In this document: positions 1 through 8,605 of the stretch, piece by piece
How the letters are laid out: every line of letters starts with the position of its first letter
How positions within the stretch are numbered: position 1 is the stretch's first letter
Origin: Rhizobium leucaenae USDA 9039
GTDB lineage: Bacteria > Pseudomonadota > Alphaproteobacteria > Rhizobiales > Rhizobiaceae
Direction: 5' to 3'
Assembly: GCF_000426285.1 (NCBI RefSeq)
Contig: NZ_AUFB01000015.1
Coordinates: forward strand, 1 to 64,000
DNA: 64,000 nucleotides
Notes under the pieces: model-generated
What the model was told of the DNA's origin: nothing
What the model saw: the letters and a program-made list of their open reading frames with translations, nothing else
The model's database searches: none
Program-made: the position numbers and the translations under genes

Positions 1-270
1 AGCGACGGCAGGATGCCGATCGATAACAACATTCTGGAACGCGAGATCAGAGTTTTTGCCACCGGAAGAAAATCGTGGCTGTTCAGCGATACCGCTGACG
101 GAGCCAGGGCCAGCGCCGTGATCTACAGTCTCATGCTGACTTGCCGCGCCTGCGGCGTCGACCCGCTCGCTTGGCTGCGCCACGTGCTCACAGAGTTGCC
201 GCAGCGGGGCGAAGCGGCCGAAATCGTCGACCTGCTGCCGTTCAACTTCGCCAGAACCGAAGCCGCCTGA
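1..270 (+). CDS. IS66 family transposase (TnpC), C-terminal part
   Basis: The frame is open from the left edge and stops at 268-270, so this is the last 89 residues of a protein that starts outside the window. It carries the IS66 TnpC signature: a DGR..IDNN..ER segment, then GRK.WLFSD, GARASA, and the WLRHVL and LLPFNF tail. It would catalyse transposition of the IS66 element. The ATG at 13 is internal to the conserved motif and is not a real start. Whether the whole transposase is intact cannot be seen. Confidence 0.85.
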
Positions 271-345
271 CACAATACGGTTCCAAACGTTGAGCCGATG
301 CCAATCAACGCGTTGGCGTCAACGTGCGGCGAAAATCGCGCTTAC
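1..345 (+). mobile_element. IS66-family insertion sequence, right-hand end
   Basis: The transposase C-terminus is followed by about 75 bases of non-coding sequence that ends at 345. Read on the minus strand from 345, the end begins GTAAGCG, the usual start of an IS66-family terminal inverted repeat. Sequence homologous to an integrase gene begins immediately to the right. The rest of the element lies left of the window, so neither the other end nor the expected 8-bp target duplication (which would be 346-353) can be checked. Confidence 0.7.
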
Positions 346-515
346 CGTGTATCGCTTCAATGTCCGCAGTTCTTTGTGACCTGAGATGCTGCTCACCTCG
401 ATGACGTTCAGCCCGCGCTCGAAAACGCGACTGACGGCCTCGTGGCGGAGATTGTGGAAACATTTGCATGCACAAAAAGCTTGCTCAAGTGAACCTGCCA
501 CCATTGGGAAGAAGT
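346..515 (-). pseudogene. tyrosine recombinase (integrase) remnant, C-terminal part
   Basis: The minus strand encodes a piece closely similar to the C-terminus of the intact integrase at 3306-4298, including the LRHE box, the SGHKEL box and the KRYT tyrosine motif. Compared with the intact gene it lacks 24 bases between the SLEQA and LRHE segments, has no N-terminal half, and is cut just after the catalytic tyrosine codon, where the IS66 end begins. The reading frame runs on into IS66 sequence as junk. It is a relic of a second, related integrase. Confidence 0.75.
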
Positions 516-619
516 TCATCGGCGTTCGCTCGGATTTTCGAAAACCGGGCGCAAAATGCATATAGGCCTACCGAAAAGGACGTGAATCAATCCTCAGGCG
601 CAACAGCGGTGCCAGAAAT

Positions 620-1024
620 CTATTTTTTCAGTGCATCCAAAGTTGCGAGCGCGGTCTGTTGCTGGATCTGCGAACAGGTGTCTGCCTCCAGATAAATTCC
701 TCGCGACGCAACATCGCTTACATTTACTTGGATGCCAATGTTCCAGTCATTTCTATCAGTGGCAATCCTTGCCAGTATTGGACCGAACCAATCGATGAGC
801 CACGTCTTGTCGCCCTGCGAAAGATTTTTAGCGTTGGCCATCCAGTTGGAAAAGATAACAAGGAGAGCGGAGTTAATTATATGAAACTGCTGATAGCGTA
901 ACGATCTTGTGGCCTGATCATCATAATTATCAACCGCCGCTCTCACCAGGTTATGGTAGTCGCGCAAGTCGTCCGTTGCTTTCGATGCGCTATTTCCCAC
1001 ATCGGCGCTAGGTTGAATTGCCAT
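620..1024 (-). CDS. hypothetical protein, island-borne, 134 aa
   Basis: I do not recognise this protein. A clear GAGGAGG ribosome-binding site sits about 6 bases before the ATG at 1024, which supports expression and the start. The product is probably cytosolic: there is no signal peptide, the middle is helical and rich in aromatic residues (FSNW, WLIDWFGP), and the N-terminus is polar. It lies downstream of, and on the same strand as, the secreted protein at 1076-1675 with a 51-base gap, so the two could be co-transcribed. Its place between mobile-element relics marks it as accessory DNA. Confidence 0.55.
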   Translation of the reverse strand: MAIQPSADVGNSASKATDDLRDYHNLVRAAVDNYDDQATRSLRYQQFHIINSALLVIFSNWMANAKNLSQGDKTWLIDWFGPILARIATDRNDWNIGIQVNVSDVASRGIYLEADTCSQIQQQTALATLDALKK

Positions 1025-1075
1025 GGCATAGCCTCCTCGCTTTAGCCAGATTGATGGGATCCGGCATTATTGGAC

Positions 1076-1675
1076 CTATTTGCCTTCGTGCCAGACCCAG
1101 GTGTTGTCACCGGCGCAATTGTGATTCTGCTCAGTTCCAGCCTTTACATATTTGACGATAAAATCCACGTTGACCCAGTGACCTTCGGGTCGGTGCTTGG
1201 GGACGACGCTGTAGGTGCTAATATAGTCGCCATGCGAACCGCGAAAGACCTTCCCTTGCGCGGAGTCGCCCTTGTTCAGAGAGATTGTTTTGTGGTCGTA
1301 AGACGCGCTGCACGTCGTATACCCGGGGGGAGGCGGGAACGCGATATACCAGTCTTCGCCCCCGTGTTTATCAATGCGACCCGAGGTCGCGAAGTCGCCT
1401 CCAGACGTAATCTTTTCCGACGCGGCGATAGCAGCGAGCCCAGCCGTATCAAATCCCATACAATCATAGGCCACTGTGCAAACAGCCGTGACGAATGCAG
1501 CGAACTCCTCGGTATTTCCCTCGTGTAGAGTTTTTTCGAGGAAGCCTCCGCTTTCTCTAATGTGTATGAAATTTGGAACAAGCTTAACTTCGGAGGCATC
1601 TTCCGCAACCGCAGGAAGTGAAATAAAAATAGAGCATGCGGCAGCCGCATACATTGCGTGTCGCAGGATAGACAT
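1076..1675 (-). CDS. hypothetical secreted protein, 199 aa
   Basis: The N-terminus is a plausible Sec signal peptide: a short basic start, a hydrophobic stretch of about 15 residues, and an AVAED-type cleavage region near residue 24. The mature part has several cysteines (about residues 66, 72, 141 and 187), which fits disulphide bonding in the periplasm. It ends in a tryptophan-rich tail. A GGAGA ribosome-binding site precedes the ATG at 1675. I recognise no family. The neighbouring gene at 620-1024 is downstream on the same strand. Function unknown. Confidence 0.55.
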   Translation of the reverse strand: MSILRHAMYAAAACSIFISLPAVAEDASEVKLVPNFIHIRESGGFLEKTLHEGNTEEFAAFVTAVCTVAYDCMGFDTAGLAAIAASEKITSGGDFATSGRIDKHGGEDWYIAFPPPPGYTTCSASYDHKTISLNKGDSAQGKVFRGSHGDYISTYSVVPKHRPEGHWVNVDFIVKYVKAGTEQNHNCAGDNTWVWHEGK

Positions 1676-1865
1676 ATCGCGTCTCCAGTTTCCGATGATG
1701 ACGATTAGCTAAGCTTCGCCGGCTACATTAACCAGACTTCGCCTGTGATTGCTGCAGCTTTCATGACATCCCTCAGTCCGCAACTCCCACGGAAAATTAG
1801 AAATACCTCAGATTGCTGTGGCGACAAATAACTCGCTCCATCACCATTCTGGCTTACGCACTTGC
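1676..1865. other. intergenic, no recognised feature
   Basis: This stretch lies upstream of the secreted-protein gene and should contain its promoter on the minus strand. I see no repeat, tRNA or convincing open frame in it. Confidence 0.4.
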
Positions 1866-1991
1866 TTAATCCTCTCCTCTCGTGAGGCGCAGCAGCTCGT
1901 CGATGCTCGGCTCGTTGCCAACAGCCTTCAGGCGCGTCGTCAGACCCTCGACCTTTTCGTTCGGTGATAAGGCCGCTTCGCTCGCCCTCGA
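1866..1991 (-). pseudogene. orphan C-terminal gene fragment beside an IS5-like element
   Basis: A minus-strand frame of about 40 codons ends at TAA (1866-1868). It reads like a genuine protein tail, with charged helical sequence and an IDELLRLTRGED end that resembles the C-terminus of small antitoxin-type proteins. The frame is closed by a TAG at the IS insertion site, and that stop persists when the pre-insertion sequence is reconstructed across the target. It is therefore probably an older relic and not a gene cut by this IS. The family is not identified. Confidence 0.3.
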
Positions 1992-1995
1992 CTAG

Positions 1996-2655
1996 GCTCA
2001 GGACTCGTTAAATCAAAGCCAGAAGATGACGGCTGCTGCGATGCATATGCTTGAGAAGAAGGTATGGGCGCAACAGTCGTAGCGGGTTGCGATGCGCCGC
2101 CAGTCCTTAAGTTTGGCGAAGAGATTCTCGATCTTGTGCCGTTTCATGTATAGCCCCTTGTCGTAGGGATACGGGGCCTTCCTGCTTCGGCTGGGCGGGA
2201 TGCAGGGTTCGATGCCCTTTTTGGAGTTCAGTCCGCCTTTGGTTCGCCCGATACAACGGGGAACATCCCCTTTTTGAGCAGGCTTGCGGCCGTGCGATGC
2301 GCTTTCAGATGTGTGGCGTCGATCATGATGCGCTCGGGCCTTGGCCCTTCACCGGCCAGCGCCGCGAAGATGCGGTCGAACACACCAAGGCGGCTCCAAC
2401 GGATGAAGCGGTTATAAAGCGTTTTGTGCGGCCCGTATTCCTTTGGCGCATCCTTCCATTGCAGCCCATGCTTGATGACGTAGACAATGCCGCTGCCAAC
2501 ACGGCGATCATCGACGCGTGGAATACCATGGGCCAAAGGAAAATGCGGCTCGATCCGAGCCATCTGACGTTCGCTCAGCAAAAACAAATCACCCATCACG
2601 GTCTCCTTCCAGAAACCGTGAATCACATCTCAAACAAAATTAATAGGTCCTGAGC
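1996..2655 (-). mobile_element. IS5-family element, 660-bp internally deleted copy
   Basis: The ends are imperfect inverted repeats starting GCTCAGGAC on both sides. They are flanked by CTAG at 1992-1995 and 2656-2659, which fits either a 4-bp YTAR or a 2-bp TA target duplication. Transposases of this group are usually carried on elements of about 0.85 kb, so roughly 200 bp are missing. The gap falls in the second transposase frame. The copy cannot make an active transposase, but its ends look intact and might be mobilised in trans. Confidence 0.75.
2013..2596 (-). pseudogene. IS5-family transposase, two-frame, internally deleted
   Basis: The first frame starts at ATG 2596 behind a GGAG ribosome-binding site and ends at 2228. 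It carries the N-terminal DDE fold, including the first catalytic aspartate in MIDATHLKAH. The second frame overlaps it (GRTKGGLNSK) and runs to TGA at 2013, ending in the conserved KRHKIEN, LKDWRRIATRYD and CAHTFFS segments. Between GLNSK and GIEPCIPP about 65 residues usual for the family are missing, including the region of the second catalytic aspartate. The enzyme is therefore predicted dead. Confidence 0.75.
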
Positions 2656-3305
2656 CTAGATGACTGAATGTCCGACGCCACTCTTCCTTAATATCTTCCA
2701 ACGTCTACCTGATCATCGATCGGCCTCGTGCTCTCAATCGGCCCCTAAAGAGCAGCCGCAGGCAAGGATGACGATCTTGCTGCGAATGGTCATGAGAAAG
2801 CTACAAACCCCTTCAACGCTCCGGGCGCGCTCGACGGAGTCTGGCTCCAGGCACTTGGCGATCCGCTTACATGCAACGAGCATCGGCGCCGATCCGGTCG
2901 CCTCCGGCTGGTATAGTCTGACATGATTTCGAATGTGTCCGCTCGAACGCGGGATGCACCCTCATACAATCGCGGATCTGCAAAGCTTCCCCGCTCCTGC
3001 CGTGGCAGCGATTACGCGGCGTAAACTGTTAGAAGGGCCTTACCGTCGGCTCTCGTCCGGATGCTCGGAGGTCTGTCCCTAGTATTCGACCATGTTGCCG
3101 AACCGACCGGACTGTCGCTTCCATTCGTCCTCGACTAGTGCCCCACGTTACTTGCCTTGCACAGAAGCCCGCAACAACTTGGAGCGAATATGGGAGGATA
3201 CGACCCGAAAAGCTTGGTGGACACCCAAAGCATCCCCATCGAGGATGCTTGATTTTTCTAGGTCTTTGATTGTTGGAGACCGGTGTCGGAACCCGGTAGA
3301 TAAGT
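2656..3305. other. 650-bp stretch without a convincing gene
   Basis: Short open frames exist on both strands (about 2660-2926 plus, about 2715-2955 minus), but neither has a ribosome-binding site or recognisable motif. The region sits between the IS5-like copy and the 3' end of the integrase gene and is probably decayed island DNA. Confidence 0.4.
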
Positions 3306-4298
3306 CTACGATAGCTTCGCGACCAGATCGTCGGCAGAGAGGTGAGTATATCTCCTGAGCATCCGCAGCTCCTTGTGTCCTGAAATGCTGCTGACTTCGA
3401 TCACATTCAGTCCCCTCTCGAACAGCCGGCTGACACCTTCGTGGCGGAGATCGTGGAAGCGCAGCCCTTTGACATTTGCGCGCACGAGCAGACGATACCA
3501 CGCTTGCTCCAGTGAACCGGGGGTCATCGGAAAGACACGAGGCTGATCGACATCTGCGCATATCTTCCATTCCTTTAGGGCGTCGAATGCACGCTGAGAC
3601 AGCGGCACCTCGCGTCCGGACCCGTTCTTCGTCATCGCCAACGTGATGACGCGACGGTTGTGCGAGATGTCGCTCCATCGCAGCCCCAAGATCTCACCGC
3701 GGCGCATCCCGGTCTCGATCGCGAGGATGATCAGCATTTTGAAGAATAGGATCTTACCAGCGGCACAGCCATCAAGCAGGCGCTGCTCCTCATCACCTTC
3801 CAGACGACGCTTGCGTTCGTTCCGGATGACCGGACGACGAACCAGCTTCACGACGTTTCGGCTTAGAGGTAGCCCCCAGTCGCGGATCGCGACCTCTATC
3901 ACGTGACTGAGGATCGCGAGCTCGCGCACCGTCGTAGATGGAGCTACGGATCGAAGGCGTTCGTCACGAAATGATGAGATATCCTGCGGCGACAGACCTA
4001 CCATTGTCCGGTAGGCAAGCTCGTGGCGTCGGAGCACGTCGATCCGCTGAATCTCCTGGACTGATCCGCGCTTCATCGGTGAGACCTCGCGCTGGTAGCG
4101 CTCCAAGAGTTGTCCGAGCGTTGTTGTCTCCAGGATCTTCGTATCCGGCGCGGTGCCGTAGCGATCGACCTGGGTTTCCAGATCACGCGCCCACTTCTCG
4201 GCTTCGAGCTTGCTATCGAATGACTTGCAGCGAGGCTTCATACCGCGCCGGCGAACCTGTGCTTGCCAGCGTCCTCTAAGTTTCCGGATCGTCGCCAT
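3306..4298 (-). CDS. tyrosine recombinase / phage-type integrase, 330 aa
   Basis: This is a site-specific recombinase expected to integrate and excise the island, most likely at the tRNA-Ser gene at 7890-7979. It has an N-terminal arm-binding region (about 1-60), a core-binding domain (about 60-155) and a catalytic domain. The full catalytic set is visible: R199 in TGMRRGE, K224 in TKNGSG, H282 and R285 in HDLRH, H308 in SGHKE, and Y317 in RRYTH. The ATG is preceded by AGGAGA at 5 bases. It lies 59 bases downstream of the HNH endonuclease gene on the same strand, with a strong promoter in the gap. The length is normal, so the gene appears intact. Confidence 0.92.
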   Translation of the reverse strand: MATIRKLRGRWQAQVRRRGMKPRCKSFDSKLEAEKWARDLETQVDRYGTAPDTKILETTTLGQLLERYQREVSPMKRGSVQEIQRIDVLRRHELAYRTMVGLSPQDISSFRDERLRSVAPSTTVRELAILSHVIEVAIRDWGLPLSRNVVKLVRRPVIRNERKRRLEGDEEQRLLDGCAAGKILFFKMLIILAIETGMRRGEILGLRWSDISHNRRVITLAMTKNGSGREVPLSQRAFDALKEWKICADVDQPRVFPMTPGSLEQAWYRLLVRANVKGLRFHDLRHEGVSRLFERGLNVIEVSSISGHKELRMLRRYTHLSADDLVAKLS

Positions 4299-4364
4299 GT
4301 GATCTCCTATCGATACTGAAGATCACGCGTAGGATGCCCCTGGAGGGGTGCCAAGGATTATCCC
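4288..4364 (-). repeat. 77-bp direct repeat, copy 1 (integrase leader)
   Basis: This segment covers the integrase promoter, ribosome-binding site and first few codons. It matches 6866-6942 at 68 of 77 positions by eye, without gaps and in the same orientation. The two copies bracket the DUF6119-HNH cassette. Its outer end overlaps the stop codon of the HNH gene. Confidence 0.85.
4326..4354 (-). promoter_or_regulatory. predicted integrase promoter with dyad in the spacer
   Basis: On the minus strand a TTGGCA box (4349-4354) is followed by exactly 17 bases and TACGCG (4326-4331). The spacer contains a short dyad, CCCC-N4-GGGG, that could be an operator. The spacing and dyad are retained in the second copy at 6904-6932. 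Confidence 0.6.
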
Positions 4365-5077
4365 GGCGCGAGTAGAGCGCGGGCTTCGGCAAGGCCGACC
4401 CATCTCGTTTTCGACACCATCACTCGATGAATAAGACGATGGCACGCGCACAGCAGCGCAAGATCAGCAAGCCTGGTCTTGCGCTCACCGGCCTCGGCAA
4501 GTGGGACCAAATGGTGCGCCTCGAAAATGGCCTCCTGCATCGATATCTCAAGAGTCGGGCGGGACAACTCGCAGATTTCGCACCGCAGCCCAGAGGGTCG
4601 TCGAGCATCTAAAAGTAGGCTCCGCACCTTCGGATTTCGTTCTCGACGAAGGTGAAGGGCTGTGAGGAGCCTACCTTCTGGCAGTTCCTGGTCGACATCC
4701 GGTAACTGCCCGGAACTGGCCGCCGCTATCCCCACTCTAATTGCGGTCGCTATTCTATGCACCTCGTCCGGGCGATGTCCGAACTCGGTCCAAACCTGGC
4801 GGTCCATATTTGAGACATTACCAAGCCCCTTTCCGGTTGCGACTTGGCGAATGTTCATCAGTTTGAAGCCGACGCCATCGGGATTTCGAAATGTCGGCTG
4901 TTTCGCTGCTTCCGCATGGTAGGGCAGCGATCGAAGCAGCGAAGAAAGCTCCCTGATTGCCTCAGACTTCGGTGAGGGGACATCGCCATTGAGCTTTAGA
5001 TAGAGGTCCAGAGCGAGAATCGTCTCGTCACGGGTCCAATTCGGATTGCCATGCCCTTGCGTTCTAGCCATCCGCAT
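4358..5077 (-). CDS. HNH endonuclease (McrA-like), partner of DUF6119 protein
   Basis: This 239-residue protein has two parts. Residues 13-80 form a domain starting NWTRDETILALDLY and containing RNPDGVGFKLMN, an N-terminal module seen on HNH enzymes of restriction-like systems. Residues 160-220 form a zinc-supported HNH nuclease: C166 and C169, EAHH at 187-190, then C210 and C212 with HRLIH at 213-217. It is expected to cut DNA. The start overlaps the end of the DUF6119 gene by 14 bases, so translation is probably coupled; an ATG at 5071 is an alternative. The genomic target and trigger are unknown. A role in restriction or phage defence is inferred from context and domain type. Confidence 0.85.
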   Translation of the reverse strand: MRMARTQGHGNPNWTRDETILALDLYLKLNGDVPSPKSEAIRELSSLLRSLPYHAEAAKQPTFRNPDGVGFKLMNIRQVATGKGLGNVSNMDRQVWTEFGHRPDEVHRIATAIRVGIAAASSGQLPDVDQELPEGRLLTALHLRRERNPKVRSLLLDARRPSGLRCEICELSRPTLEISMQEAIFEAHHLVPLAEAGERKTRLADLALLCACHRLIHRVMVSKTRWVGLAEARALLAPG

Positions 5078-6725
5078 CGGCCAATTGTGGTTGAGGGGGA
5101 TCCAACTTCTCTATGAGATGCATTTCGACTCCATATCCATATTTGGCCAATAGCGAAGCTGGCGCTTGAAGGCTCACCTTGCTGAAAAATGGAATATCTA
5201 CCGCGCCACTTCTGCGATTCCTGCGGCGAAGAATGCCGTAAATCACCGTGTATGCTGTCGTGTCGACGCGCCCTTGTCGGCCGGGGGGCAGCAGTGACTC
5301 GAAGCCAACTTTAACTGGTTCCTCAGCCTGCCGTCGCCGGGCTTGGCGTCGCACGCCATTCCGGAAGGTCGCATCTGACATCAAGGCATCGCAGCTTGTG
5401 ACTGCCTGCATCCATAGATGACTGATCGACGACGATGAGTGGCCGTCCTTAAGATGTATGAGCTGCCGCTGAAGTGAGAAAAAGTCACATACCTCGAGAT
5501 TTCCATTATTCACCCCGCGAGGATTCACTTTGGTCTTGTCCATAATCAACAATTCGGGGCGTTGATTTAGCTCGCCAATAAGTTCCTGTTCGTTTTTCGC
5601 GGAGCTCTGACGAAGAAAGGACGGTCTGACTAAGGATTGAAAAATGGCCTCAACGCGATCCTTGTAGACCCGGCTTATCTGATACCACGTTCCAGCATAG
5701 AGAACGTAGGCCTGTTCATTGAGCTGACACTCATAAATAAAACAATCATAGACTTTCCATTTCGGTTTTGATCGAGTCTCTTCGTCCTCATGCATATGGA
5801 CATAGTGATCAGCTTTGATCACTTCGAACGCTTCATTGAAGGCAATGGCATTAAGCTCGGCGGCGTATTCGAGAATATCTAATTGAGAATACCAATTCTT
5901 CTCCCGGGAGAAACCCTTTCCATAATAGGCGACGTCCTGGCCTTCAACATAGTCGACAATCTCAGGTGGACACATATGGAGGTCGCTTTGTTCTCCAGCG
6001 CGAATTGATGCAATTTCTTGAGCTAGCGATGCATCTAGCGATCCGATTTCCGCCGCATCGGTCACGATCTGAACATTGTCGATCCATTCGTAATCCTGCC
6101 GGTAATTACTGTCATCAAATGCTTGGAGACATTGTGCCAATTTGCCTTGGAGCCCTCCGGGCTGGATCGAGCATGTAATTGTCAGGCTATCTCGGCCAGC
6201 GACAAATTTGGCGAAAGCACGGTCGGTTGGAGAACCGGCAGCAACACGCAACAAGTCACGCTGAATATCTATACCGAACCCGGCGAGATCTGCATTTCTG
6301 CTAGCCTGAGTTCGTCGTTGAAACACGGTGGCGTCGAGCGTTGCGCTATCCAGACTCCTAAGATTACGTCGGGAAACCCTGTTCACGACGACCTTCAATC
6401 CGAAATTCCGCTCTATCTTCGCCGGATCGATGAGGAAATGTCCTGCGCCGAAGCACAAAACGAAAAGCCGTTGAACTCCCGCTTGTCCTTCCACCGGCAC
6501 GGCGAGCACGGCGGAGGAGGACTCAGTCCATAAATCAGGTTCATGGGCGGTGAGATCGGTTAGGAGCGGCATCCAAGAGGGTCGACCTCGCGAAGAAGCG
6601 ATGAACAGCCTACTCCCCGGAGGAGTCTCGGTCACAACTTCATCAGTATCCGCAGTATTTCTAAATGCATCTTCGATATGAACGCCCAGCTTTAGGAGCC
6701 GCACGTTTAATGTGACTGCCGCCAT
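5064..6725 (-). CDS. DUF6119 / TIGR04141-like sporadically distributed protein, 553 aa
   Basis: I place this in the DUF6119 (TIGR04141) family from several features. There is an N-terminal RLFVLCFGAG-HFLID segment followed by NFGLKVVVN (about 86-115) and a LRSLDS step. A mid-protein block has KVYDCFIYE and a GTWYQIS strand. A C-terminal half has an EVCDFFS and IHLKDG segment followed by a serine run. No known catalytic motif is obvious to me. The start at 6725 (MAAV) has GGGGGA 8 bases upstream and is better than the ATG at 6761. Base composition is lower in GC than the core genome, and the gene is coupled to the HNH gene. Families of this kind are patchily distributed and tend to sit in variable islands; function is unproven. 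Confidence 0.8.
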   Translation of the reverse strand: MAAVTLNVRLLKLGVHIEDAFRNTADTDEVVTETPPGSRLFIASSRGRPSWMPLLTDLTAHEPDLWTESSSAVLAVPVEGQAGVQRLFVLCFGAGHFLIDPAKIERNFGLKVVVNRVSRRNLRSLDSATLDATVFQRRTQASRNADLAGFGIDIQRDLLRVAAGSPTDRAFAKFVAGRDSLTITCSIQPGGLQGKLAQCLQAFDDSNYRQDYEWIDNVQIVTDAAEIGSLDASLAQEIASIRAGEQSDLHMCPPEIVDYVEGQDVAYYGKGFSREKNWYSQLDILEYAAELNAIAFNEAFEVIKADHYVHMHEDEETRSKPKWKVYDCFIYECQLNEQAYVLYAGTWYQISRVYKDRVEAIFQSLVRPSFLRQSSAKNEQELIGELNQRPELLIMDKTKVNPRGVNNGNLEVCDFFSLQRQLIHLKDGHSSSSISHLWMQAVTSCDALMSDATFRNGVRRQARRRQAEEPVKVGFESLLPPGRQGRVDTTAYTVIYGILRRRNRRSGAVDIPFFSKVSLQAPASLLAKYGYGVEMHLIEKLDPPQPQLADADG

Positions 6726-6774
6726 TGATAAGTCCCCCGCCAGAAGGGGATTTTCCAACAATTTTAGTAGACCG

Positions 6775-6876
6775 TCAACTTTGCGTCGAAATCTGAGCGA
6801 ACATTAAAAAACTCAAAGCTGCAAGACGACAAACCCAACATTGCTGGCGTCCCTCCAGCCGACGAATCGTCGCCAT
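6775..6876 (-). pseudogene. integrase 5' remnant (start codon and about 12 codons)
   Basis: From the ATG at 6876 the minus strand reads MATIRRLEGR, nearly identical to the start of the intact integrase (MATIRKLRGR), behind the same GGAGA ribosome-binding site. Similarity then stops and the frame continues as unrelated codons to TGA at 6775. It is the 5' end of an integrase gene and not a functional gene. It lies 50 bases upstream of the DUF6119 start. Confidence 0.7.
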
Positions 6877-6942
6877 GTAATCTCCAATGAAAAATGAAGA
6901 TCACACGTAGGATGCCCCCGAAGGGGTGCCAAGGATTATCCC
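6866..6942 (-). repeat. 77-bp direct repeat, copy 2 (integrase leader)
   Basis: The second copy of the integrase leader has 9 differences from 4288-4364 and no length change. The promoter boxes and the dyad between them are preserved. It lies upstream of the DUF6119 gene, so the cassette is bounded by direct repeats. Confidence 0.85.
6904..6932 (-). promoter_or_regulatory. duplicated integrase promoter, candidate promoter of the DUF6119-HNH operon
   Basis: A TTGGCA box (6927-6932) and TACGTG (6904-6909) are 17 bases apart on the minus strand, with a CCCC-N4-GGGG dyad in the spacer. No terminator is visible between it and the DUF6119 start at 6725, so it could drive the cassette. Confidence 0.5.
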
Positions 6943-7010
6943 TGCACCTCGTAATTTGTCCGCGCAGCCGATGACGCGTCATGAAAAGCTGACCGAGACG
7001 CGATCAGCCG

Positions 7011-7697
7011 CTAATGCGTGAATTGTAGGCGCAATATTTTGCGTTCACAGCTCTGGAGTTCTTTCTTCATCGCCGACAGACGCCAACGAGCTACAAAAGC
7101 AAAGAAAAATGACAAAAACACGGGAGTAAAATTTAGTATAGCAAACGCAGAGAATGCGCATGCTGAAGCGAACGCCGCGATATCAACCACTTTTTGATTG
7201 GCATATATGGTTGAATACCCAAGACAAAACAAAGACAAAAAGAAAAATACAACAGCTGAAGTTTCTATAAAACCATCAGTTTCTGTCCAGTTACCTATTT
7301 TATATTTAATGTCCGATGATAGCTGCTGAGCGTCTAACTCCAACACCGAAAGCTCTACCATTTTCTCAGTAGCTTTCGAGTGATCGTTCTGGTCCAGGTA
7401 TTTAGGAAATTCTACGTCAGGGTTCTGATTCTTTCCAGATCTGAGACATTTGTCTCTAGCGGCTTGCTCCATCAACTGCATTTTCGAAGCGGCCAAATTC
7501 GAAGAGTTTCTGGCAAGCTCAAGAAGGGCTCTGGTTTGGTCGATAACCTTCTCCTGCGCAGGCTGCCGCAACACTCTGAATATGCTTAGTCCGAAATTGA
7601 GCGCAGCCGCGAGCTGAAATGCGGACTGATATTGGCCGGCGGTAAACTCATAAATAGCGCTTGACATCCAAAGGTGAACTCCGTTTTCAAAGAACAC
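7011..7697 (-). CDS. hypothetical membrane protein with C-terminal membrane segments, 228 aa
   Basis: I recognise no family. The first 140 residues are mainly helical and polar, with a likely coiled coil around 50-85 and 105-135. A hydrophobic region at about 143-165 and another at about 170-205 would form two or three membrane spans, followed by a short basic helix. The start at 7697 is GTG; an ATG at codon 11 is an alternative, and neither has a strong ribosome-binding site. Base composition is clearly AT-richer than the flanking core genes, which points to transfer. It lies between the tRNA-Ser gene and the DUF6119-HNH cassette and could be cargo of the same island. Confidence 0.6.
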   Translation of the reverse strand: MFFENGVHLWMSSAIYEFTAGQYQSAFQLAAALNFGLSIFRVLRQPAQEKVIDQTRALLELARNSSNLAASKMQLMEQAARDKCLRSGKNQNPDVEFPKYLDQNDHSKATEKMVELSVLELDAQQLSSDIKYKIGNWTETDGFIETSAVVFFFLSLFCLGYSTIYANQKVVDIAAFASACAFSAFAILNFTPVFLSFFFAFVARWRLSAMKKELQSCERKILRLQFTH

Positions 7698-7889
7698 GTA
7701 TGGGATGAAAATAAATAGGGAATTAATTCGTCTGCTGGGAGTGTCGAATTATGTAAAGCGCGCCTTAAACGAGCCGGGACGTGGCGCGACTGTGCCCCTC
7801 TTGCTGGAGAGGTGACCAACGAATTGCCCGGTTACTGACAATTAATCCTAAGAAAATGCAAAGCTGTAAGGCAACTACGGTCTATAGGA
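7698..7889. other. island-tRNA junction, intergenic
   Basis: This AT-rich stretch lies between the membrane-protein gene and the 3' end of tRNA-Ser. It is where an attachment site would be expected. I found no second copy of the tRNA 3' sequence elsewhere in the window, so the far end of the island probably lies left of position 1 or has decayed. Confidence 0.4.
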
Positions 7890-7979
7890 TGGCGGAGAGG
7901 GTGGGATTTGAACCCACGATGCCCTTGCAGGCATGCCGCATTTCGAGTGCGGTGCATTCGACCACTCTGCCACCTCTCC
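7890..7979 (-). tRNA. tRNA-Ser (anticodon CGA)
   Basis: The minus strand folds as a 90-base class II tRNA. It has a GGAGAGG acceptor stem paired with CCTCTCC, a D arm, an anticodon stem with CGA in the loop, a long serine-type variable arm (CATGCCTGCAAGGGCATC region), a TTCAAAT T-loop, and an encoded CCA at 7890-7892. It decodes UCG serine codons. Its 3' end faces the island, and serine tRNA genes are common integration sites for tyrosine recombinases. Confidence 0.95.
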
Positions 7980-8077
7980 GGTTATGCTGGTCGGCGCGTT
8001 TCTCAGCGCGGGCGTTCTCATAGCGAGAGAAGGATGGGATGGCAAGGGTGAATATTCAAGGTTTTCATCCTTTTGCC

Positions 8078-8104
8078 TTGACAGATCACAGGCCCTTATA
8101 TATC
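8078..8104 (+). promoter_or_regulatory. predicted promoter of rplU-rpmA
   Basis: A perfect TTGACA (8078-8083) is followed by an AT-rich TATATATC stretch around 8097-8104, at 15 to 17 bases spacing depending on the hexamer chosen. It lies about 185 bases upstream of rplU with no other gene between. Confidence 0.55.
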
Positions 8105-8287
8105 CCGTGCGACGCAATAGGTGTGGATAAGTCCGTGCCCTTGGCCGCCTCGCTCTGTGCGGGGTTTCACCGGCAGATCTTTTTCGAGGCCGCAAACCTT
8201 TGAAATCCCTGCTAAACTTAGACTGATAAAAAGACGGCCGCTTGCCTTTGTGGCGAGAGAGCCGGAACGAACATGAAAGGATAAAAA

Positions 8288-8605
8288 ATGTTCGCAGTCA
8301 TCAAGACCGGCGGTAAGCAGTACCGTGTGGCAGCAAACGACGTGCTGACCATCGAGAAGCTGGAAGTCACCGCCGGCGACACCGTAGAATTCACCGAAGT
8401 CCTCGTTATCGGCGAAGGCGCCGACGCTGCGATTGGTGCTCCCTTCGTCAAGGGCGCTTCCGTCAAGGCCGAAGTGGTCGAGCATAACCGCGGCAAGAAG
8501 GTCATCGCCTTCAAGAAGCGCCGTCGTCAGAACTCGAAGCGTTCGCGCGGCCACCGCCAGCATCACACGGTCGTCCGTATCACGGACATCGTGGCTGCCA
8601 AGTAA
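8288..8605 (+). CDS. rplU: 50S ribosomal protein L21
   Basis: This 105-residue protein of the large ribosomal subunit binds 23S rRNA. It starts [14 protein letters not shown], the L21 signature, and ends in the basic [12 protein letters not shown] region that contacts rRNA. Length is normal for the family. It is followed after 32 bases by rpmA, the usual partner, and the pair is upstream of obgE as in most bacteria, here separated from it by two acetyltransferases and a minus-strand gene. An AAGGA-like site precedes the ATG. Confidence 0.97.

Follow-up and report, generated by a model that had tools for sequence, protein, structure and literature searches.

A DUF6119 protein encoded with an McrA-like HNH nuclease in a tRNA-Ser island of Rhizobium leucaenae: a candidate two-part DNA restriction factor

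The DNA analysed here (hereafter the window) comprises the first 64,000 nucleotides of contig NZ_AUFB01000015.1 from Rhizobium leucaenae USDA 9039. Its minus strand carries a gene for a 553-amino-acid protein of the DUF6119/TIGR04141 family (5064..6725, counted from an ATG; the longest mechanical open reading frame, or ORF, opens at a TTG at 6761), followed by a gene for a 239-amino-acid McrA-like HNH nuclease (4358..5077). The original prediction, made from the DNA letters and their translations, took the two for a compact defence system in which the HNH protein is the effector and DUF6119 the subunit that provides sensing or specificity. The 14-nucleotide gene overlap that it reported (5064..5077, minus strand) follows from the ORF coordinates; with the HNH gene started at the ATG of residue 3, the start used by its relatives, the overlap becomes 8 nucleotides, the same as in R. 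rhizogenes. Its placement of the pair next to an integrase, in an island at a tRNA, was also correct. Transcription on the minus strand proceeds from DUF6119 through HNH to the tyrosine recombinase gene of the island (3306..4298, minus strand; 330 amino acids; Phage_integrase E 3.7e-28), and a tRNA-Ser(CGA) gene, detected by ARAGORN and as Rfam RF00005, lies at 7890..7979 on the same strand as the likely integration site.

A repeat of about 87 nucleotides, made up of the integrase leader, the start codon and the first codons, precedes the integrase gene and is found again before DUF6119. The integrase-proximal copy (4281..4367, minus strand; nhmmer E 6.9e-26) overlaps the HNH stop codon and the integrase start, while no integrase follows the upstream copy (6861..6945, minus strand; nhmmer E 2.3e-22; repeat family D2). 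With blastn, window positions 6945->4292 match positions 6782->9435 of the R. rhizogenes locus (L043, from OV677 contig NZ_JUHG01000006.1; the matching genome in the order set was treated as the same strain) in one gapped match of 2661 columns at 75.9%. This homology spans leader copy to leader copy and ends there; the integrase block aligns apart, to L043 10655->11702. In the window and in R. rhizogenes, DUF6119-HNH is exactly one leader-bounded cassette. Leader copies elsewhere are at L043 6782, 9362 and 10655, at L120 10554, 12881 and 13566 and at L020 10355 and 11868. R. rhizogenes carries an additional leader-bounded cassette between DUF6119-HNH and the integrase block (L043 9519-10646); its product is a DUF4268 protein that matches NucS_C below threshold. 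At the Shinella locus a leader copy follows HNH, and none was detected before DUF6119.

A search of 247 genomes of the family, with three candidates scored in each, found the leader in 22, one of them the window's own. Twenty regions from 19 genomes, the window and four further islands make up 25 distinct leader loci, seven of which hold more than one copy at E < 1e-5; in one of these, L183, the copies form two separate islands. A tRNA-Ser gene lies within the stretch read in 21 of the 25. The island of an R. ruizarguesonis plasmid is 10 kb long and is flanked by full tRNA-Ser copies that are 94% alike (L021 3847-3940 and 13977-14070); it contains HNH and integrase genes and no DUF6119. Leader copies could be either recombination sites or scars left by elements that lost their integrase. 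A tRNA-like core sought inside the repeat gave no more than short matches within the window, which are no evidence for such a core, and Rfam returned no match to the repeat at E <= 0.5.

The assignment of the 553-residue protein to DUF6119, already made in the original prediction, is borne out by two profiles far above their cut-offs. PF19614 matches over its full length (1-524 of 524; E 1.3e-123, 413.9 bits against a cut-off of 27) and TIGR04141 at E 7.4e-115 (384.3 bits against 35); the protein is a full-length member of the family. The window's protein was aligned with 53 others from the 77 DUF6119 loci collected, at identities from 84 down to 21%. Nine residues, E379, E411, D414, H424, K426, S431, S435, H436 and Q440, are each invariant in all 54. 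Four of them form the putative active-site motif E411-x2-D414-x9-H424-x-K426 (5448..5495, minus strand; 54/54 invariant). D414 and K426 are present throughout, but the (D/E) place of the (D/E)-x-K signature is taken by H424 in 54/54. Among 50,697 phage records a single one holds a DUF6119 relative: in Pseudomonas phage vB_PaeS-D14B (positions 4728-6437 of L198) it is flanked by integrase genes on both sides, close to one end of the phage genome.

Models of the protein suggest a two-part architecture. The whole protein was modelled with AlphaFold2 (AF2; pLDDT 88.1, pTM 0.85) and the C-terminal domain by itself (pLDDT 96.4, pTM 0.92). Structural matches were scored with VIA-align, confined to Foldseek's 1000 candidates; the 50 best rows were listed, and Z scores within 1 of each other count as tied. 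Residues 1-209 (6099..6725, minus strand) are predicted to adopt an RdgC/Iml3-like, hence RexA-like, DNA-binding fold. RdgC 2owy ranks first for residues 4-209 (VIA Z 6.7, 168 residues aligned, root-mean-square deviation 4.6 A), with RdgC 2owl (Z 6.2), human CCAN chain L, which we take to be CENP-L (Z 5.1 and 4.8), and Iml3 (Z 4.5-4.7) as the other matches. The rows that span approximately residues 1-209 number seven among the 50 listed, namely two RdgC, two CCAN chain L and three Iml3 entries; an unrelated kinase fragment, found with the whole model, covers residues 5-107 only (Z 3.2). A 2024 paper describes Iml3 as a known structural relative of RdgC, states that lambda RexA has the same fold and reports that RdgC and RexA, the latter a phage exclusion protein, bind DNA non-specifically (PMC11077077).

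The remainder of the protein resembles nucleases. Residues 352-545 (5091..5672, minus strand) are predicted, from the domain model and VIA-align, to form a PD-(D/E)XK-like nuclease domain. In the whole model, residues 360-545 match HamA (VIA Z 6.5), FokI (6.4), CdiA-CT (6.2), EcoT38I (5.5) and OkrAI (4.9). When the domain is taken alone, the first 13 of the 50 listed rows are all nucleases, at Z 6.4 to 4.9, comprising HamA of Hachiman, EndoMS/NucS, CdiA-CT, EcoT38I, SduA of Shedu and BstEII; presumably all of them share the PD-(D/E)XK fold. A Foldseek search of the viral collection BFVD with this domain gave a phage exonuclease as the only match at E <= 0.001 (E 4.6e-4, probability 1.00, TM 0.22/0.38). 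The fold assignments of both parts are likely, not proven.

The genomic company of the family often includes restriction genes. Neighbours, defined as the closest ORF of 100 amino acids or more on each side and on either strand, were recorded for 71 of the 77 loci (71 upstream, 69 downstream), leaving out L092, L096, L117, L118 and L119, which are partial or small, and the R. rhizogenes locus L043. The nearest downstream gene encodes HsdR in 15 of 69 loci and the nearest upstream gene HsdS in 12 of 71, counts with which PADLOC agrees and which have no random-gene baseline behind them. By phmmer labels, the 12 HsdS loci all fall within the 15 HsdR loci, L102 has HsdR upstream, and in the remaining loci the nearest neighbour is not a type I subunit. 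Plasmid annotations show the order HsdM-HsdS-DUF6119-HsdR-SprT-family peptidase in Mesorhizobium and Paracoccus, and S-DUF6119-R-SprT in Actibacterium; the adjoining genes mostly overlap by a short stretch. Other nearest neighbours are McrBC (3), C5-methylases (2 upstream, 2 downstream), GmrSD_N, AspBHI, MamI, EcoRII-C, NERD, Abi_2 and an HATPase protein that matches Shedu below threshold; plain neighbours such as LysR regulators (3), MFS and UbiD occur too. The defence setting claimed for the pair finds support at the level of the family, type I subunits being the commonest nearest neighbours of DUF6119 overall. Around the pair itself, no further known defence gene was identified in window positions 1-8300. 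Relatives of the HNH protein lie less than 8 kb from C5-methylase genes, and without DUF6119, in 4 of 6 annotated plasmid neighbourhoods; these six come from 7 of the 18 non-Shinella records, one being unannotated. Both families are often found in restriction or defence company. As a separate observation, an ORF of 446-464 amino acids overlaps the DUF6119 start by 4 nucleotides in L084, L086, L087, L089, L090 and L091, sometimes lying between HsdS and DUF6119 and sometimes without type I genes; two of the six, scanned individually, gave no Pfam match.

The association of DUF6119 with this HNH protein is tight within a narrow group. Three members of this DUF6119 subfamily were found, those of the window, R. 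rhizogenes (84%) and a Shinella oryzae plasmid (77%), and HNH lies directly downstream in all three. The proportion of synonymous differences (pS) between their DUF6119 genes is 0.63-0.80, saturated in the Shinella comparisons, with dN of 0.09-0.15. Between the window and R. rhizogenes dN/dS is 0.07 for DUF6119 and 0.09 for HNH, low values that point to purifying selection on both genes. Judged from these sequences, the pair is kept despite high to saturated synonymous divergence, in one Rhizobiaceae lineage only. Conserved adjacency, by which the original prediction was to be judged, is seen among close relatives and is absent at the level of the family: HNH adjoins DUF6119 in just one of the 77 loci, that of R. 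rhizogenes (phmmer against simple ORF calls, E <= 1e-3). Of the 397 genomes searched in the order, 13 carry DUF6119 and 22 the HNH profile (1e-10; seven candidates scored per genome), and only the window's own genome carries both. A plasmid collection yielded 24 records with DUF6119 and 19 with HNH, the two listings sharing only the Shinella plasmid. HNH was not among the 25 Pfam families listed out of 51 upstream and 75 downstream, a list that a single distant HNH neighbour could escape.

HNH genes are also found on their own. Three of the six islands found with the same integrase family, on R. ruizarguesonis pRL10 (L021) and in genomes G046 (L120) and G669 (L178), carry HNH (77-82%) without DUF6119, and a DUF6119 remnant sought in these three was not found. 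A Burkholderia relative of the HNH protein (56%) has no DUF6119 within the 16.7 kb read. An obligate DUF6119-HNH pair as a general rule was rejected on the single adjoining locus among 77 and the single shared genome among 397.

That the HNH protein is McrA-like is weakly indicated by Pfam (PF01844, E 0.0037, below the family cut-off) and well by other profiles. The PADLOC HNH profile matches at E 3e-7, and EcoMcrA (6ghc) is the best match in the PDB, at E 0.063 with the single sequence and 9.4e-8 with a ten-sequence profile, over the HNH region only; searches with phmmer and hmmsearch aligned the HNH part alone and left the N-terminal specificity domain of EcoMcrA unmatched. The catalytic motif is present as E186-A-H188-H189 (EAHH, 4511..4522, minus strand) and H213...H217, and so is the first CxxC. 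The site had been described as intact, but its last motif is not. The second zinc knuckle (4427..4450, minus strand) reads C-x-C-H-R-x-x-H, one residue short of the C-x-x-C-H-R-x-x-H of its relatives; two residues separate these cysteines in 13 of 13 relatives, and in a ten-row alignment all nine other rows have C-x-x-C-H. At the DNA level the loss is clean and in-frame. A study of a different HNH enzyme, Gmet_0936, places its last zinc cysteine immediately before an active-site residue and considers the active site to be closely tied to the binding of zinc (PMC3765158). Loss of HNH activity in the source genome is likely, the enzyme being probably weakened or dead because its knuckle is one residue short; an assembly error is a possible cause of the missing residue. 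The HNH gene of the G046 island (L120 9863-10560) is split over two frames, which makes it the second of six islands with a damaged HNH. A single-sequence HNH query of viral contigs gave four candidate stretches, none confirmed as relatives.

Other features of the region complete the picture. Between the tRNA and the cassette lies a cargo ORF of 228 amino acids with a GTG start (7011..7697, minus strand), for which family searches gave no significant match. The C-terminal fragment of a related second integrase (67%; repeat family D1) occupies 346..510, minus strand. Window position 1 is also the start of the contig, which leaves the far end of the island out of view. At 8217-8292 there is an Rfam match to BSnc140 below threshold (35.5 bits; gathering cut-off 126), in a stretch that overlaps the beginning of the ORF at 8288. 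A HamA-family (Hachiman) gene is found elsewhere in the source genome (contig C13, 138626-139351).

We lean towards reading DUF6119 as a two-part DNA restriction factor that works beside varying nucleases, with the cassette as antiviral or anti-plasmid cargo of the tRNA-Ser island. The N-terminal RdgC/RexA-like module would grip DNA, and the C-terminal PD-(D/E)XK-like domain would cut it through E411, D414, H424 and K426, with E379 and Q440. DUF6119 might serve as backup to a restriction nuclease encoded next to it, or depend on that nuclease for licensing; the partner would be HsdR in type I operons and, in the Rhizobiaceae cassette, the McrA-like HNH protein from the overlapping gene. Since HNH appears crippled in the source genome, DUF6119 would be the working part there. 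The gene calls, the families, the invariance of the motif, the predicted folds, the gene neighbourhoods, the borders of the cassette and the missing HNH residue are results of the analysis; the gripping and cutting of DNA, the loss of HNH activity and, from context and fold, the defence role of the pair are inferred.

Several results weigh against this reading. Every VIA Z lies below 8, a range in which a common arrangement may explain a match, and with the C-terminal domain unrelated rows start at Z 4.8, directly after the 13 nucleases, interspersed with PfoI (4.5) and BsmI (4.3); the unrelated decarboxylases found from Z 4.8 are within 1 of several nuclease rows and hence tied with them. Against the PDB, Foldseek gave nothing at E <= 0.001 with the domain or with the complete model; the first rows are unrelated (beta clamps; endoglycosidase H), and with the complete model HamA comes only at rank 20, with probability 0.33. 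Neither hhalign comparison was significant, whether of the N-terminal part with RdgC (6 sequences; probability 0.5%) or of the C-terminal domain with HamA (5 sequences; 0.2%), and a PDB sequence search with the DUF6119 alignment returned no match at E <= 10. The third motif is HxK instead of (D/E)xK, and the domain could be inactive. Many DUF6119 loci lack an adjoining restriction gene; among the 9 of 24 plasmid neighbourhoods examined, some had none close by.

One alternative is that the C-terminal domain is a non-cutting PD-(D/E)XK relative, with HxK for ExK, and that DUF6119 acts as a clamp or regulator on DNA, where it might, like RdgC, modulate HsdR or recombination. The histidine at position 424, in place of the usual acidic residue in every aligned protein, is what such a protein might display; the position of DUF6119 genes, flanked by HsdS and HsdR and slightly overlapping them, would suit it as well, as would the description of RdgC and RexA as DNA binders. 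We nevertheless consider it unlikely, given that nine residues, lysine and acidic ones among them, are absolutely invariant, as an active site would predict, and that stand-alone DUF6119 copies exist. A better chance, still well short of even, goes to two independent restriction nucleases that have a cassette and a transcript in common and do not act jointly. Each family also occurs alone elsewhere, DUF6119 has many different neighbours, and HNH relatives keep C5-methylase company of their own; the coding overlap and the constant co-occurrence in the close DUF6119 subfamily argue against complete independence.

An obligate two-gene system, with HNH as effector and DUF6119 as the subunit that senses or confers specificity, seems improbable to us. 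Although the genes overlap, remain together in the three close relatives at high synonymous divergence and constitute a single cassette common to the window and R. rhizogenes, with an HNH protein of McrA-like type, this HNH is absent from 76 of 77 DUF6119 loci and stands without DUF6119 in half of the six islands and in Burkholderia. In addition, DUF6119 has a predicted nuclease-like domain of its own and is intact where HNH is damaged. DUF6119 itself models as a DNA-binding module joined to a PD-(D/E)XK-like domain and is read here as a restriction nuclease with changing partners; the earlier division of labour is probably mistaken, or incomplete.

More tentatively, the restriction-factor reading can be extended to a new type of restriction nuclease, combining an RdgC/RexA-like clamp with an HxK PD-(D/E)XK-like cutter, spread over several phyla, lodged repeatedly between HsdS and HsdR, provided with alternative partners and carried in Rhizobiaceae as an exchangeable cassette. 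The Rhizobiaceae cassette would be bounded by integrase-leader copies and travel beside other nuclease-like cassettes. If the proposal is true, type I operons with DUF6119 harbour a second, hidden nuclease, perhaps overlooked in studies of phage-host interaction or transformation. The prediction points to single residues, D414, H424 and K426, in a family of unknown function. The damaged HNH gene and the exchange of partners also caution against naming neighbours a system from one genome.

In the open-licence literature DUF6119 is named only in passing, in work on wheat MADS-box genes, though it may be in print elsewhere; 'TIGR04141' and 'sporadically distributed protein' were not found there. 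RdgC was absent among the matches listed for its combination with anti-phage, nuclease or type I restriction terms, and the titles and first abstract lines of the matches listed for rhizobial tRNA-Ser islands mention no such cassette arrangement. As to the family itself, the window's protein shares the full-length profile and the nine invariant residues of DUF6119/TIGR04141 and differs in nothing essential.

Comparison with known systems yields partial likenesses. RdgC and lambda RexA, DNA binders in recombination or phage exclusion, share the predicted fold of DUF6119 residues 1-209; RdgC has no significant profile similarity to DUF6119, and, unlike what is predicted for DUF6119, we know of no nuclease domain in RdgC or RexA. 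The defence effectors HamA (Hachiman) and SduA (Shedu) are among the closest fold matches of the C-terminal domain. HamA differs in having an ExK motif (E138 and K140, by its entry title) where DUF6119 has HxK, and in lacking profile-level similarity; no HamB-like gene was noted beside DUF6119. EcoMcrA (EcoKMcrA), described as an N-terminal part plus a C-terminal HNH (PMC7145662), resembles the window's HNH protein in this layout and in the HNH region, but the latter has no sequence match to the N-terminal domain and a zinc knuckle one residue short. TgvAB, a tested GmrSD-like defence pair inside a Vibrio type I restriction-modification cluster (PMC11411939), consists of DUF262/DUF1524 proteins whose genes are both needed, whereas the window pair has no adjoining type I genes; it is nevertheless, as an extra restriction module within a type I operon, a likeness of the type I-embedded DUF6119.

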